Of a stretch of 64,000 bases of DNA, positions 10,447-41,583 are shown piece by piece; positions within the stretch are counted from its first letter, which is position 1, and each line of letters begins with the position of its first letter. The position numbers were made by a program, and so were the translations under genes. Location: positions 806,001 to 870,000 of the forward strand of contig NZ_JOMR01000001.1 of NCBI RefSeq assembly GCF_000711195.1, in the 5' to 3' direction. Source of the stretch: Thiomicrospira pelophila DSM 1534. GTDB taxonomy: Bacteria; Pseudomonadota; Gammaproteobacteria; Thiomicrospirales; Thiomicrospiraceae. The notes below the pieces were generated by a model that had not been told where the DNA came from, did not search any database, and saw only the letters and a program-made list of their open reading frames with translations.

Positions 10447-10461
10447 TGGCATATAGATTGC
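10447..10461 (+). promoter_or_regulatory. Sigma-54 promoter of flgFGH
   Basis: TGGCATATAGATTGC: the -24 GG and -12 GC are exactly 10 bases apart. It shares TGGCAT...TTGCT with the fliE and cheA promoters. An enhancer-binding activator such as FlrC is required by this promoter class. Confidence 0.8.
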
Positions 10462-32984: not shown

Positions 32985-33800
32985 ATGGCTATGGTAATCA
33001 ATACCAATATGGGTGCAATCAACGCGAGTCGTATTTTGGACGGCACGCAAAAAGAACAAAATACCGCAATGGAACGTTTGACCTCAGGTCTACGTATCAA
33101 TAAAGCGGCCGATGATGCGGCAGGCTTAGCGGTAACGACTGGTATGACCACCCAGATCCGAGGCACGGATCAAGCGATTCGTAACGCGAATGATGGTGCA
33201 TCATTGTTGCAAACCATGGACGGGGCGACCGAAGAAGTGGTAAACATGTTACAGTGTATGCGTGAGCTAGGTGTGCAGTCATTGAACGGTACCTACAGTG
33301 CTGATAACCGTACTCAAATGGATGCTGAGTTCCAACAGTTAAGTACGGAAATTACACGTGTTGCGAACACAACTCAGTTTAACGAAACTGACTTAATGAA
33401 TGCGAACGGTACCGTGAGTTTGCACGTGGGTTGGCAGACAGGTGCGAACAATAAGATTAACGTCAGTACGATTGACTTTACTGGTCTAACGGCGTTGGCT
33501 ACAGATATTACGACGATTGCTAACGCGTCATCGGCGATCGGTTCAATTGATGCCAACTTAGGTTCGATCAAGAACGTACGAGCCAACTGGGGTGCGATGC
33601 AAAACCGTTTGGATTACACCGTATCGAACCTGGCGAACGTGAATGAAAACATGAATGCAGCACGTTCACAGGTTCAAGACGCTGACTATGCACGTGAAAG
33701 TTCGCAGTTAGCACGAATCCAGGTGTTGCAGCAAGCGGGTATGGCGATGTTGGGTCAAGCGAACCAGCAGTCACAAAACGTATTATCGTTACTAAGATAA
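32985..33800 (+). CDS. fliC: Flagellin 4, with an unusual cysteine
   Basis: 271 residues. Close to flagellins 2 and 3, with changes EQNTAMER, AVTTGM, TALATD, ESSQLA and a different end (LSLLR). Residue 91, Arg in the other three copies, is Cys here (TGT at 33255-33257, one transition from CGT). Flagellins rarely contain cysteine. AAGGAGAG ribosome site and own FliA promoter. It is followed by a strong hairpin and then flaG. Confidence 0.93.
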   Translation: MAMVINTNMGAINASRILDGTQKEQNTAMERLTSGLRINKAADDAAGLAVTTGMTTQIRGTDQAIRNANDGASLLQTMDGATEEVVNMLQCMRELGVQSLNGTYSADNRTQMDAEFQQLSTEITRVANTTQFNETDLMNANGTVSLHVGWQTGANNKINVSTIDFTGLTALATDITTIANASSAIGSIDANLGSIKNVRANWGAMQNRLDYTVSNLANVNENMNAARSQVQDADYARESSQLARIQVLQQAGMAMLGQANQQSQNVLSLLR

Positions 33801-33863: not shown

Positions 33864-34265
33864 ATGGAAACGTCAGGACTTTCAAATAATATTGGGTATC
33901 GAAGTGATACTCCCGTGTCGCCTCAGGTTGAGCAAAAACCTAGACCCGCTATTGAACAAGTTGACAGGTCGAAATCGGCTAGTCAGCCTGAAGTCACCAA
34001 AACAGAGCTGTTGGAAGTTAATGTTGAACGTGTGAGTGATGCGCTTTCTCAATACGGATTAAGTGTTAACTTTGACCGTGATGCGGAAACCAATCGCCCG
34101 ATTGTTCGTATAGTAGATCGCCAAACTGATGAGGTGATCAAGCAATATCCGAGTGAAGGGGCTTTGCAAGTAATGAAAAATATTCAGAACTATTTAATGC
34201 AACAACCGACATCCGGCATGGATAAACAACAATTGACAGGCGCCTTATTCAATGAAATCATATAG
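33864..34265 (+). CDS. flaG: FlaG-family protein 1
   Basis: 133 residues. A variable, charged N-terminus and a conserved FlaG core (LSVNFDRDAETNRPIVRIVD, then TDEVIKQYPSEGALQVMKNI). FlaG proteins influence filament length and polar flagellin assembly in Vibrio and Pseudomonas; the mechanism is unsettled. AAAGGAGAAGG ribosome site. It lies between the flagellins and fliD, its usual place. Confidence 0.88.
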   Translation: METSGLSNNIGYRSDTPVSPQVEQKPRPAIEQVDRSKSASQPEVTKTELLEVNVERVSDALSQYGLSVNFDRDAETNRPIVRIVDRQTDEVIKQYPSEGALQVMKNIQNYLMQQPTSGMDKQQLTGALFNEII

Positions 34266-34293
34266 ATGATAGATTTGTTAAGGAGTAATCACC

Positions 34294-34761
34294 ATGAGCG
34301 AGTTAAACAAACTGGCTGCTACGGTGTCAAATCAAGTTTATACAAGTGCGGTAAAGAAATCGTTTAACGGCGATGATATTGGATACAATCCGACGCAGCC
34401 AGTTGACACGTTAAAAACTGCGTCGCCCAAACATAACGACAGTCGCGTGGAAAGTATGCAGGCGCCTGTTGATACAAAACAAGCTACGCCTGAGGAATTG
34501 GATCAGGCTATGCTAGCTGCAAATAATCAGTTAGAGAGTTTAAGGGCCAGCTATTTAAGGTTCGAGCGCGATGAGCTGACCGATAAAATGGTGGTTGCGA
34601 TTAAAAATGCCCAAACTGATGAATTGATTATGCAGATTCCCTCCGAAGATTTTCTTCGTATTGCAAAAAATATTGATGCTTATCTAAAGCAAGTCAATAA
34701 TGGATTGAGTGATAATCCAAGTTCAATACCTGTTGGTTTATTTACCAGTCAGCAGGTTTAA
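34294..34761 (+). CDS. FlaG-family protein 2 (diverged paralogue)
   Basis: 155 residues. The C-terminal core (FERDELTDKMVVAIKNAQTD, ELIMQIPSEDFLRIAKNIDA) parallels that of FlaG1, while the N-terminal 85 residues are unrelated and probably disordered. It follows flaG1 by 28 bases behind AAGGAG. It ends with the same terminator module as flagellins 2 and 3. Confidence 0.8.
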   Translation: MSELNKLAATVSNQVYTSAVKKSFNGDDIGYNPTQPVDTLKTASPKHNDSRVESMQAPVDTKQATPEELDQAMLAANNQLESLRASYLRFERDELTDKMVVAIKNAQTDELIMQIPSEDFLRIAKNIDAYLKQVNNGLSDNPSSIPVGLFTSQQV

Positions 34762-37744: not shown

Positions 37745-37796
37745 ATTCATTTTATTCCAATTCTAAGTAATCTTTTAATTCTTGCTTGACAATATT

Positions 37797-37827
37797 TTGA
37801 CACTTTTACGCTTTTTGAGGGTAGAAT
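37797..37827 (+). promoter_or_regulatory. Possible sigma-70 promoter of flrA
   Basis: TTGACA (37797-37802) and TAGAAT (37822-37827) are 19 bases apart, longer than ideal. Another TTGACA lies at 37786. If correct, transcription begins after the ATG at 37826, supporting the later flrA start. Confidence 0.35.
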
Positions 37828-37855: not shown

Positions 37856-38986
37856 ATGTCTTTAAATCTATTTTCTACTTTGGTTGGTGAAAGTCAGCTT
37901 ATGCAGCGCCTATATACGGCTATTAGCGAGCTGGCGTCTATCGATACGCCTGTTTTAATTTTGGGTGAATCAAGCACGGGTAAGGATTCTGCAGCACATG
38001 AACTACACTATGAATCTGCCAGATCTGCGGCCTTATTTGTGAGTTTTAATTGTGCGGCGATTCCGCATGAATTATTAGAGTCGGAAATTTTTGGTCATGT
38101 GCAGGGTGCATTTCAAGGCGCGATTACAGGTCGAAAAGGTCGATTAGAAATGGCACATGATGGCACTTTGTTTCTAGATGATGTCGATCATTTGCCCATG
38201 CCAATCCAATTAAAGCTACTTCACGCGTTGCAGCAAGGAGAATTTTACCCTGTGGGCGCTCATGTGCCTTTAAAAGTGAATGTTCGTTTGGTCGTCGGGG
38301 CGACCGATAACTTGGTTAATTTGGTGGATGATGGTTATTTCTCGGGCGCTCTTTACGCGCTGTTTCGTTCGCATACGTTACACATGCCACCTCTACGTGA
38401 CCGCCCTGAAGATATTGAATCTTTGTTTCAAGTTTTATTCGCAAAAGTTCAAGCTGCCGATGTAGAGCCACCCATGCTAGATCCATTAGCGTTAAATGCA
38501 CTAAAAGAATACGACTGGCCAGGAAATATTAGAGAGCTAGAATGTTTAGTTGAAAGCTTGGCGACGAACTTTGCCGGTAAGTTGGTTCGTCTGGAAGACT
38601 TACCGGAACGCTATCGCGAGCCTCACTCTAAAGATCAGTTGCCGCTTGGCTTGATTGAAGATGAGATGGCTTTTCTGTTGTCTAATCACTTTAATGATGA
38701 TGAGTGTCATGCTTTTTTACCAGATTCGACTAATGAATTTGATAGTGTGCAACAAGCCTTTCAGGTACAAGAAGTACCAGGCCTGGTAGATATTCCGAGC
38801 TTTGACTTAAATGCTGGGTTGCCAATGAAAACCTATTTGCAGCAAGTGGAGTTGGAGGTGATTTGTGGTGCGTTACAAAAAACGAAAGGGAATGTGTCGC
38901 AAGCGGCTAAACTGTTGCAGGTGAATCGTACCACTTTAATTGAGAAAATCCGTAAACATAATTTGAAGGAGCTTTATATTGCTTAA
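37856..38986 (+). CDS. flrA: FlrA/FleQ-like regulator with a degenerate sigma-54 activator domain
   Basis: 376 residues from ATG 37856 (GGCGAG ahead; ATG 37826 is an alternative adding 10 residues). The AAA+ domain begins almost at once, so the ~120-residue FleQ N-domain is absent. Walker A is GESSTGKD (37-44). The sigma-54 contact loop is GAFQGA (84-89) instead of GAFTGA. Walker B is LFLDD rather than LFLDE. The segment YFSGALYALFRSHTLHMPPL lacks the two arginines at the usual FR...DRL finger positions. The C-terminal Fis-type helix-turn-helix (GNVSQAAKLLQVNRTTLIEK) is intact. It probably binds DNA but may not activate sigma-54 in the normal way (inference). An exact palindrome codes VPGLVD in the linker before the helix-turn-helix. 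Confidence 0.8.
   Translation: MSLNLFSTLVGESQLMQRLYTAISELASIDTPVLILGESSTGKDSAAHELHYESARSAALFVSFNCAAIPHELLESEIFGHVQGAFQGAITGRKGRLEMAHDGTLFLDDVDHLPMPIQLKLLHALQQGEFYPVGAHVPLKVNVRLVVGATDNLVNLVDDGYFSGALYALFRSHTLHMPPLRDRPEDIESLFQVLFAKVQAADVEPPMLDPLALNALKEYDWPGNIRELECLVESLATNFAGKLVRLEDLPERYREPHSKDQLPLGLIEDEMAFLLSNHFNDDECHAFLPDSTNEFDSVQQAFQVQEVPGLVDIPSFDLNAGLPMKTYLQQVELEVICGALQKTKGNVSQAAKLLQVNRTTLIEKIRKHNLKELYIA
38776..38787. repeat. ACCAGGCCTGGT palindrome, inside flrA
   Basis: Exact copy extended by one base each side (T...A); PGLV phase, in the linker between AAA+ and DNA-binding domains. Confidence 0.9.
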
Positions 38987-40127
38987 TCAGGTCGAAAAAG
39001 ATCGTTTGGAGGAGTTGGAGCAAGCCTTTGCTTTATTTAACCAAACATCTGATCAGTTGACCCAAGCTTATGAAGCCTTGCAAAACCAGGTGGTTCACTT
39101 GCAGCAACAATTGGCCCAAAGTGACTCAGAAAAGCGACGGGTAGCGGATCGACTGGAACGCTTACTAACGCTCTTGCCCGCTGGCGTAATTGTGTTGAAT
39201 GTGCACAATCAAATTATTGAAATGAATCCAAGTGCACAATCTATTTTGGGTGATGAAGCTTATGGTCAGGCTTGGAGCGAAGTAGTGAGGCGAGTTTTCT
39301 TAAGCACTAATGACGCGCAAGAATTAATTACACATAACAAAACTATATACCAGCTATCTCAAGTGCCTTTAGACACCACCTTAGGTAAAATTTTATTGAT
39401 TCAAGATGTGACCTCGGCACGTCAGTTGCAGGATCATATAAACCGACACCAGCGTTTACGTTCGATGGGCGAAATGGCCGCATCACTTGCTCACCAAATT
39501 CGTACACCTTTGGCGGCCGCTTTATTGTATGTGTCGCAACTCTCATCTGAAGGTTTAGCGGAGGATAAGCGCCACAAATTTGTGAATAAGACCTTATTAA
39601 GTCTCAAACACTTGGATGGACTGGTTAAAGACATGTTGCAATACGCTAAAGGCGGTAGCGTTGGAGAGGCTTTAATTGAGCTGGATGGGTTGGTTGACGG
39701 CTTGCAGTCGGCTGTTGAGCAGCAAGTGGCCAATAGTGATAGTCAGCTAAGTATTCAAAATAAAGCACCAGGGCTGGTGGTTAAAGGGGATCATGATTCT
39801 CTTATGACGGCCTTGCAAAACCTGGTTGTTAACGCCATAGATGTCGTGCGAATGCGTGCTAACATTAATATTCGAATTCATGATAATGCAGATGGTTGGG
39901 TTGATTTGATTGTGTCCGATCAGGGGCCAGGCATTGATGCGGCGATTCAAGAAAAAATATTTGAACCTTTTTATACCAGTCGTGCCAAAGGCACAGGTTT
40001 AGGTTTGGCGGTGGTCAGAACGGTGGCTGAAGCGCATGGTGGAGAAGCTTGGGTGCGTTCCAAGCTCGGTCAGGGCGCGCAGTTTGGGATACGTTTGCCT
40101 TTGATTAAAGAGGATATGGTTAGATGA
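38979..40127 (+). CDS. flrB: Flagellar sensor histidine kinase FlrB/FleS
   Basis: 382 residues, no membrane segment. An N-terminal coiled coil, a PAS-like domain (LPAGVIVLNVHNQIIEMNPS), an H box SLAHQIRTPLAAALLY with His172, then the ATP-binding domain with N box LVVNAIDVV, DQGPGIDAAIQEKIFEPFYT and GTGLGLAVVRTVAEAHGG. A cytosolic kinase for FlrC. The start is TTG 38979, supported by AAGGAG 7 bases upstream, overlapping flrA by 8. A one-base palindrome variant codes KAPGLVV. Confidence 0.93.
   Translation: MLNQVEKDRLEELEQAFALFNQTSDQLTQAYEALQNQVVHLQQQLAQSDSEKRRVADRLERLLTLLPAGVIVLNVHNQIIEMNPSAQSILGDEAYGQAWSEVVRRVFLSTNDAQELITHNKTIYQLSQVPLDTTLGKILLIQDVTSARQLQDHINRHQRLRSMGEMAASLAHQIRTPLAAALLYVSQLSSEGLAEDKRHKFVNKTLLSLKHLDGLVKDMLQYAKGGSVGEALIELDGLVDGLQSAVEQQVANSDSQLSIQNKAPGLVVKGDHDSLMTALQNLVVNAIDVVRMRANINIRIHDNADGWVDLIVSDQGPGIDAAIQEKIFEPFYTSRAKGTGLGLAVVRTVAEAHGGEAWVRSKLGQGAQFGIRLPLIKEDMVR
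39767..39778. repeat. Variant palindrome ACCAGGGCTGGT inside flrB
   Basis: One base from the exact dodecamer, PGLV phase. Confidence 0.6.
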
Positions 40128-41488
40128 GTATTGCGAAGATTTTGGTGGTTGAAGATGATCCAGAACTTCAAGAAGCCTTAACGGATATTTTAATGCTAAA
40201 TGAGTTTGAAGTACTCGCCGTCAGTTCAGCTGAAGAGGCCTTGGTCGCTTTAGACGACGATATTGGCATGGTTTTTTCGGATATTCGCATGGATGGCATG
40301 GATGGCTATAATCTGATGAAACGGATTCGTGCCTTGAAACCCTATTTGCCGATTGTGCTGATGACCGCTTACGGAACAATTGAGCAAGCTGTAGAAGCCA
40401 TGAAAGAAGGCGCCGTAGATTATATGGTTAAGCCATTTGAAGCCAATGTGTTAGTGGAAAAAGCTAAAGCCTATTTTAATCGCGATGCCTCTTCAGCGGA
40501 CGACTTCATTGTGGCCGATCCGGTGACGACACAAATTAAATTGATGGCTAATAAAGTGGCACAAAGCGAAGCGAGTGTCATGATTAGCGGCGAAAGCGGT
40601 ACAGGTAAAGAGGTATTGGCGCGTTATATTCATCAACAGTCCGAGCGCCGTGATCAGCCATTTGTTGCGATCAATTGTGCCGCGATTCCAGAAAACATGT
40701 TAGAGGCCGTGTTGTTTGGTTATGAAAAAGGGGCCTTTACAGGTGCGATGAAAGCCATGCCTGGCAAATTTGAGCAAGCTCAGGGTGGCACCATTTTCTT
40801 AGATGAAATTGGTGAAATGAAGCCTGACTTGCAGGCTAAGTTACTACGAGTGTTGCAGGAGCGCGAAGTTGAACGTATTGGTTCGATGAAGTCGATTCAA
40901 TTAGACTTGCGCGTGTTGAGCGCGTCGAATGTGGATATGAAGTCGGCTATTTCGGATGGACGCTTCCGTGAAGATTTGTTTTATCGCCTGAATGTTTTCC
41001 CCGTGCATTTACCGCCTTTGCGCGAACGCCCAAAAGACATTGCCGCGATTGCCGAAAAGCTCTTATGTCGGCGCTGTGCAAATGCACGAGTGCAACCTGT
41101 AATTTCAGCGCCGGCTTTAAAAAAATTGATAGAATATACATGGCCGGGTAACATACGAGAATTGGATAACGTAATCCAGCGTGCTTTGGTGATGATGGTC
41201 GGGGATGCGATTAATGAGCAGGATTTATTGTTTGATGGGGATCAACATCAACCTTCTGTTGCTGCCGAGCCGGCTAAGTCGAACGATATTCGAGTTTCTG
41301 AAGAGTCGATAGAGTCGGACACGGATTCCAACTTTGATTTAAAAGCTCGAGAAGTAGAGTTAATATTAACTGCTCTCAAACGAAATAATGGTCATCGTCA
41401 AAAAACAGCGGATGATTTAAATTTGAGTCCGCGTACCTTGCGTTATAAACTGGCAAGACTGAAAGAGCAGGGTGTTGAAATTTCTTAA
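40124..41488 (+). CDS. flrC: Flagellar sigma-54 response regulator FlrC/FleR
   Basis: 454 residues. A receiver domain with phospho-acceptor Asp53 (VFSDIRMDGMDGY), an AAA+ domain with canonical GESGTGKE, GAFTGA, TIFLDEIGEM and FREDLFYRLNVFPVHLPPLR, and a Fis-type helix-turn-helix (GHRQKTADDLNLSPRTLRYK). Phosphorylated by FlrB, it should activate the sigma-54 promoters of flgF, flgI, fliE and cheA. Its intact motifs contrast with the degenerate FlrA next to it. Overlaps flrB by four bases. Confidence 0.95.
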   Translation: MSIAKILVVEDDPELQEALTDILMLNEFEVLAVSSAEEALVALDDDIGMVFSDIRMDGMDGYNLMKRIRALKPYLPIVLMTAYGTIEQAVEAMKEGAVDYMVKPFEANVLVEKAKAYFNRDASSADDFIVADPVTTQIKLMANKVAQSEASVMISGESGTGKEVLARYIHQQSERRDQPFVAINCAAIPENMLEAVLFGYEKGAFTGAMKAMPGKFEQAQGGTIFLDEIGEMKPDLQAKLLRVLQEREVERIGSMKSIQLDLRVLSASNVDMKSAISDGRFREDLFYRLNVFPVHLPPLRERPKDIAAIAEKLLCRRCANARVQPVISAPALKKLIEYTWPGNIRELDNVIQRALVMMVGDAINEQDLLFDGDQHQPSVAAEPAKSNDIRVSEESIESDTDSNFDLKAREVELILTALKRNNGHRQKTADDLNLSPRTLRYKLARLKEQGVEIS

Positions 41489-41511: not shown

Positions 41512-41526
41512 TGGCATATGAATTGC
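41512..41526 (+). promoter_or_regulatory. Sigma-54 promoter of the fli operon
   Basis: TGGCATATGAATTGC with GG and GC 10 bases apart, 58 bases before fliE. Nearly the same as the flgF promoter. Confidence 0.82.
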
Positions 41527-41583
41527 TGGTTATGTGATAATAATCAAACGCTTTTTAGCAAGTTTTATAGGGTTTAAAATTCA

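Follow-up and report, generated by a model that had tools for sequence, protein, structure and literature searches.

A FlrA-type flagellar regulator with replaced AAA+ motor residues and a retained helix-turn-helix in Thiomicrospira pelophila, a candidate autorepressor of its own operon

The window analyzed here, 64,000 nucleotides from the complete genome (2,108,215 bases) of Thiomicrospira pelophila DSM 1534, carries a flagellar gene cluster in the order fliD-fliS-fliT-like-flrA-flrB-flrC-fliE, in which flrA, flrB and flrC are named by their domains, fliT from a weak match only, and fliD, fliS and fliE by eye. The features central to the argument are the following, with positions counted along the window:

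37788..37801, + strand: palindrome GACAATATTTTGAC, the proposed FlrA operator, resembling the FleQ box GTCAATNNATTGAC with 2 mismatches
37797..37827, + strand: likely sigma-70 promoter of flrA-flrB-flrC, assigned by consensus (-35 TTGACA, -10 TAGAAT, spacing 19)
37856..38986, + strand: flrA-type gene with replaced AAA+ motor residues, a conserved Fis-type helix-turn-helix (HTH) and no N-terminal domain
38979..40127, + strand: flrB, sensor histidine kinase, whose frame start overlaps the flrA stop
40124..41488, + strand: flrC, canonical sigma-54 activator with a receiver domain, by motifs and domain search
41512..41527, + strand: sigma-54 promoter-like site TGGCATATGAATTGCT 5' of fliE, kept despite the changes to the FlrA motor, with no adjoining TGAC half-site

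The start of flrA fits better at 37856 (MSLNLF), since the alternative ATG at 37826 falls within the likely -10 element. Elsewhere in the window, two adjoining FlaG-like genes (33864-34761) follow a flagellin-like gene (32985-33800); the second matches FlaG models weakly and the first was judged by eye.

Domain searches recover an AAA+ domain and a Fis-type HTH in the flrA product, and no PF06490 FleQ domain. Its best sequence and fold matches are Pseudomonas aeruginosa FleQ and Vibrio cholerae FlrA (8p53, 5exx, 26jl); against the FleQ structure 5exs it shows 43% identity and a TM-score of 0.93 on the target, and within the searched collection, the named relative closest to this genome is a Thiomicrospira MAG, with 83% identity for this protein. 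The HTH and a FleQ-box-like site are traits it has in common with FleQ and FlrA, as its position directly 5' of flrB-flrC is with canonical FlrA of the sister genera. However, it departs from FleQ and FlrA in lacking the N-terminal domain (a family-wide trait) and in its altered sigma-54 loop, Walker B Glu and finger arginines. Translation bears out the last three changes as the initial annotation had described them: the sigma-54 contact loop reads GAFQGA instead of GAFTGA (T97 lost), Walker B reads FLDDV as against FLDEI (E119 lost, D118 kept), and the finger region reads YFSGALYALF as against xFREDLFYRL, with R173 replaced by S and R179 by L. The HTH does remain, as claimed, with 21 of its 22 invariant residues; Walker A, also said to remain, keeps its K53 but not an intact motif, reading GESSTGKD with the replacements G50S and E54D. 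Along with K53 and D118, the sensor II R236 is kept.

P. aeruginosa FleQ numbering equals the window FlrA position plus a constant offset of 127; the Walker A E181 thus corresponds to D54, E246 to a D, R300 to S and R306 to L, while among further nucleotide-handling positions R260 is H133, D302 is A175, R185 is H58, and R363 stays R (R236). From work on PspF, we take FleQ R306 to be the second finger arginine; finger arginines act in trans. Passages of PMC10723142 assign a part in handling ATP to, among others, FleQ R300, E246, D302, R260 and R363. An AlphaFold model (pLDDT 81 on average, with block values above 90 across residues 21-200) predicts an intact AAA+ fold with a high-confidence core nearest to the FleQ AAA+ domain, which is what structure prediction, suggested by the initial annotation as a check, contributes. 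From the sequence we infer a protein that would have neither ATPase nor sigma-54 activity, and the label of sigma-54 activator that the domain model PF00158 gives to the flrA product is probably wrong.

To place these changes, we compared 53 copies of flrA, comprising that of the window, 51 from fetched loci in which it lies directly 5' of flrB, and that of L205, where the contig ends behind the gene. In the six remaining fetched loci the gene is absent from that place (L150, L152, L155, L156) or the contig ends before it (L158, L207). All 47 sister-genus copies with a complete AAA+ domain and HTH are canonical, with T97, E119, R173 and R179 invariant, and two copies truncated by contig ends (L174, L206) are canonical in their readable part. 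The 47 define 152 invariant columns, at 53 of which the window protein differs. They also have open frames of only about 340-403 aa. Hence, the absence of the N-terminal FleQ domain, correctly noted in the initial annotation, does not belong to the same change as the motor residues: its loss is family-wide, all FlrA proteins read in the family being short, and predates theirs, and the absence of PF06490 is not decisive for FlrA/FleQ membership, the sister-genus genes being equally short. PF06490 was not found in the host genome at E 0.001; its matches in 27 of 62 family genomes are weak (about 20-30 bits) and were read as receiver domains rather than the FleQ domain.

Alignment with relatives, another check that had been suggested, restricts the motor-residue losses, as far as these loci were read, to the genus of the window, a small group of sulfur-oxidizing bacteria. 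Eight members of this genus have flrB, of which four encode a FlrA devoid of finger arginines and the other four lack flrA 5' of flrB. The motifs vary among the former: G006/L154 has GAFQGA and LDDV like the window, G005/L153 has GAFPGA and LDEV, retaining the Walker B DE, and G003/L151 has GAFSGA and LDGI, with the finger region deleted and sensor II lost. According to passages of PMC3162934, the preferred loop change in relatives without sigma-54 contact is Thr/Ser-to-Pro, the state of L153, and Ser at the GAFTGA Thr position is an accepted working variant. Since the GAFSGA of L151 possibly works and L153 keeps DE, the two finger arginines are the residues missing from every one of the four. 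The same replacement occurs in all four at eight positions (77, 123, 137, 138, 142, 158, 167 and 173), which favors a single ancestral change. The other four genomes (G001, G004, G007, G008) have flrB and flrC with no flrA there, and FlrA thus seems dispensable in them; no flrA was found elsewhere in these genomes by a search that a very degenerate copy could escape. In a tree of FlrB and FlrC the genus forms one clade (support 88), within which flrA was lost at least twice; the lost lineage L150/L156 joins L151 and its sisters weakly (61). The ninth member, G002, had no flrB match at 1e-45 and is perhaps flagellum-free.

Beyond the family, 204 genomes were searched, and at 1e-82 there were matches in 115, including two from the same family; the best 80 of the other 113 matches were read, a choice that favors canonical copies. 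The loop Thr is present in 80/80 (79 GAFTGA, one GSFTGA), as are the Walker B DE, both finger arginines and sensor II. Residues invariant in 47/47 canonical relatives and kept in 80/80 loci of other families exclude chance for the motif losses. The 45 best bacterial enhancer-binding protein loci give a similar picture: one (L010) is from the same genus, and in the remaining 44 the loop Thr and both arginines are intact, isolated deviations elsewhere being seen in L029 (LSDI), L064 (LDDI), L032 and L037 (GAFTSA) and L034 (GAYTDA). The order-level search took in the same 62 genomes as the family-level search. As a separate observation, the genome of the window also encodes a response regulator, NtrX-like by eye (L005, 1039-2430), without a recognizable GAFTGA loop, to which all nine genus genomes have weak matches in frames of 447-487 aa.

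The c-di-GMP-binding FleQ proteins are marked by the LFRS arginine, an RN pair after Walker A and ExxxR, none of which is found in the window FlrA. FleQ R144, R185, N186, E330 and R334, which are presumably the c-di-GMP-binding residues, are S, H, E, V and K in it. The LFRS and RN elements are likewise absent from the canonical short FlrA read in the family (loci L150-L207), and hence c-di-GMP sensing of the FleQ kind is improbable for the short FlrA proteins of this family.

No second FlrA/FleQ-type protein was found elsewhere in the complete host genome by sequence and domain searches. The caveat of the initial annotation, namely another canonical flrA with the present one under relaxed selection, is accordingly not borne out, the gene itself having a dN/dS of 0.089 against its ortholog in L154. 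FlrC, which it had taken as an internal control, serves well as one: its motifs are canonical in 57/57 readable orthologs (48 GAFTGA, nine GSFTGA), seven of them from the genus, with one further ortholog, cut by a contig end, standing outside the 57. We propose that FlrC is the sole flagellar sigma-54 activator in this genome. The sigma-54-like site before fliE is present in all six loci read from the genus, in 4/4 of group g2 and in 44/46 of the others, and the window has more such sites at 10447 and 63821. What differs is a TGAC half-site within 12 nt 5' of the -24 element at fliE, which occurs in 0/6 loci of the genus as against 23/44 of the sister genera outside g2 (1/4 in g2); for the former two groups Fisher's p is 0.025, with the species related and the element picked after viewing the sequences. 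A matrix trained on the flrA-promoter palindromes did not cleanly separate the fliE promoters, and a plain TGAC count did better. The half-site is short, and its pattern is suggestive of, and would fit, a loss of FlrA action at this early promoter. Independently, 3' of the fliE sigma-54 site (window 41512-41570), there is a TGTGATAAT-like element, also seen in several sister-genus loci, that looks like the extended -10 of a second promoter.

Selection on flrA is uneven along the gene. Between the window and L154, dS is 1.14, dN 0.101 and dN/dS 0.089 (on the stop-to-stop frame of 398 codons, about 22 of them 5' of the start), as compared with dN/dS values for the same pair of 0.023 for flrB, 0.052 for flrC, 0.034 for fliS and 0.048 for fliD, and with 0.085, 0.044 and 0.086 for canonical flrA pairs. 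A pseudogene is thereby rejected, the frame also being open; stops in sister-genus flrA matches came from alignments that extend 5' of the start, the frames themselves being open too. The flrA dN is raised relative to that of flrB (0.101 vs 0.026, a ratio of 3.9 where four canonical pairs range from 1.0 to 2.1), and wider, near-saturated comparisons give dN/dS of 0.160 (L154-L153, dS 2.06) and 0.276 (window-L151, dS 2.54), which point to relaxation in part of the protein. FlrA of this clade is, therefore, partly relaxed yet far from neutral. The constraint is, judging by retained residues, concentrated in the HTH: the window, L153 and L151 keep 21, 21 and 20 of its 22 invariant residues, as against 61, 60 and 44 of the 108 in the AAA+ core and 16, 17 and 11 of the 21 in the lid, and the HTH of the window and L154 is identical at 52 of 54 positions.

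The counterpart of this retained HTH on the DNA would be the palindrome at 37788..37801, with most of the flrA -35 hexamer contained in its right half. The FleQ box is given in passages of PMC10723142 as GTCAAT-NN-ATTGAC. A palindrome of the form GNCA-(six)-TGAC ending in a TTGACA -35 is found in all 46 canonical loci with a readable promoter, its six central positions being A/T except for one G in L184. As the right half was selected by TTTGAC, the information sits in the left half, of which all four scored letters are present in 39 of these loci and three in seven; the -10 rule fits 44, and the -35/-10 spacing is 17 in many relatives as compared with 19 in the window. The palindrome is also kept in 4/4 loci whose FlrA lacks the finger arginines, as GACAATATTTTGAC in the window and L151, GACAAAATTTTGAC in L153 and GACGAAATTTTGAC in L154, the last with one change in the left half. 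It was not found 5' of flrB in the four genus genomes without flrA (0/4), an absence that counts for little, since the site may have gone with the deleted flrA; the palindrome could also be read by a protein other than FlrA.

We also observed FleQ-box-like palindromes 5' of fleQ/flrA in other gammaproteobacterial families (loci L218-L297): among 69 of these 80 loci (11 were dropped for too little upstream sequence), 30 have the pattern upstream, with the -35/-10 rule also fitting in 12, and none has it inside the gene. Five distinct control patterns (six were written, two being identical) each gave 0/69 upstream, with two giving one match each in the gene, and 50 dinucleotide shuffles yielded a mean of 0.18 and a maximum of two. 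This suggests that autoregulation of fleQ/flrA is ancient. Within the window, the palindrome is the only intergenic FleQ-box site with at most two mismatches; a scan allowing three gave 46 matches against 35.5 expected, a figure reached by 4/100 shuffles and weak by itself. Across the genome GNCAAWWWWTTGNC has 11 matches as against eight for its reversed control, and hence a wider regulon cannot be claimed. The site at the flrA promoter is the only one of the 11 outside open frames, the other ten lying within frames of at least 90 codons, called by length, in a search that looser sites would escape.

Taken together, the motif losses, the want of another FlrA in the searches, the purifying selection, the HTH, the palindrome and the fliE sigma-54-like site lead us to favor, with modest confidence, the view that the window FlrA descends from an activator and now does no more than repress its own operon, flrA-flrB-flrC, sigma-54 activation being the task of FlrC. 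Of the three options raised in the initial annotation, this conversion of an activator to a repressor is the best supported, by the HTH, the purifying selection, the palindrome on its own sigma-70-like -35 and the lack of a second FlrA, whereas a partner of FlrC and a sigma-54-independent regulator stand as rivals. The ancestor would have been an ordinary short FlrA that acted both as a sigma-54 activator and as a feedback regulator of its own sigma-70 promoter. FlrC would have become sufficient in the ancestor of the genus, presumably by taking over the early promoters, freeing the FlrA motor from selection; FlrA would then have lost the remodeling of sigma-54 polymerase and retained sequence-specific binding at the flrA operator. 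Occupying the palindrome (37788-37801) over its own -35, it would repress the operon and, as flrA, flrB and flrC overlap, set the amounts of FlrB and FlrC, with FlrC alone activating the sigma-54 flagellar promoters. A longer course of stepwise stripping may be proposed more tentatively, on somewhat less than even terms: the sensory domain lost in the ancestor of the family, then the motor in that of the genus, leaving a feedback governor whose DNA binding at an ancient autoregulatory operator is what selection still maintains, while FlrC carries the whole sigma-54 hierarchy, after which two sister lineages dropped the gene.

The alternatives are taken in descending order of probability. It is unlikely that flrA is a decaying remnant, lingering without an important job after its motor was lost and already gone in sister species. 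The absence of flrA in four of the eight genus members with flrB, through at least two losses, would be in keeping with this, as would the greater degeneracy of L151 (finger region deleted, sensor II lost), the raised dN relative to flrB and the ratios of 0.160 and 0.276 in the wider comparisons. Against it stand the dN/dS of 0.089 at a dS of 1.14 for the closest pair, open frames in four species, an HTH retained even in L151 (20/22) and the palindrome in all four loci.

Improbable is a partnership with FlrC in mixed oligomers, DNA specificity coming from FlrA and the motor from FlrC, despite their common operon and a predicted AAA+ fold that is intact and closest to that of FleQ. A precedent, of which the present case would be the mirror image, lies in FleQ/FleT of Cereibacter sphaeroides, two paired flagellar activators one of which is likewise without an essential domain: passages of PMC11999139 describe FleT as lacking the DNA-binding domain, whereas the window FlrA lacks motor residues and keeps the HTH. 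However, no TGAC half-site adjoins the fliE sigma-54 site in the genus (0/6), FlrC occurs with no FlrA in four sister species, and the finger arginines that act in trans are lost.

Doubtful, too, is a role like that of TyrR or VpsR, as a sigma-70 regulator, whether activator or repressor, of other genes that may lie outside the flagellar set. Relatives of these activators whose GAFTGA is not functional do exist, passages of PMC3162934 reporting sigma-70 dependence for TyrR, DhaR and HupR and doubting the sigma-54 dependence of VpsR, and P. aeruginosa FleQ acts at sigma-70 promoters of biofilm genes, according to passages of PMC10723142; but the ten other strict palindrome matches lie inside frames of at least 90 codons, from a search that looser sites would escape. 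The window FlrA resembles these four relatives in its defective GAFTGA, predicted AAA+ fold and retained HTH, and differs from them, as members of other subfamilies, in that a flagellar master regulator is hit, in Walker B and both fingers as well, within one genus. That it is still an active sigma-54 activator, as its retained K53, D118, sensor II R236 and fliE sigma-54-like site might hint, is most improbable, given the joint change of the loop Thr, the Walker B Glu and both finger arginines, all kept in 80 FlrA of other families and 47 of sister genera.

We return to the view of FlrA as an autorepressor. Activator relatives without sigma-54 contact are already known (TyrR, DhaR, HupR and probably VpsR, in passages of PMC3162934). 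In the open-licence PMC literature, we found no earlier report of a motor-dead FlrA or FleQ among the matches listed, no FlrA autorepression (the single mention of autorepression concerned ArgR) and no work on flagellar FlrA in Thiomicrospira; FleQ autorepression appeared in no title among the matches listed, most subscription journals lying outside that literature. A dispensable fleQ is on record for Azotobacter vinelandii, where, according to PMC2885672, the gene is not needed for flagella, with FlhDC as the master regulator; in contrast, FlrC is the only flagellar candidate in the genome of the window. The promoters of fleQ/flrA genes across several gammaproteobacterial families seem, moreover, to carry a conserved palindrome. 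One bacterial family offers a graded natural series that runs from canonical FlrA through four orthologs without finger arginines to outright loss, and whether the DNA-binding feedback of FlrA is separable from its sigma-54 role would thereby be testable with orthologs rather than engineered mutants.
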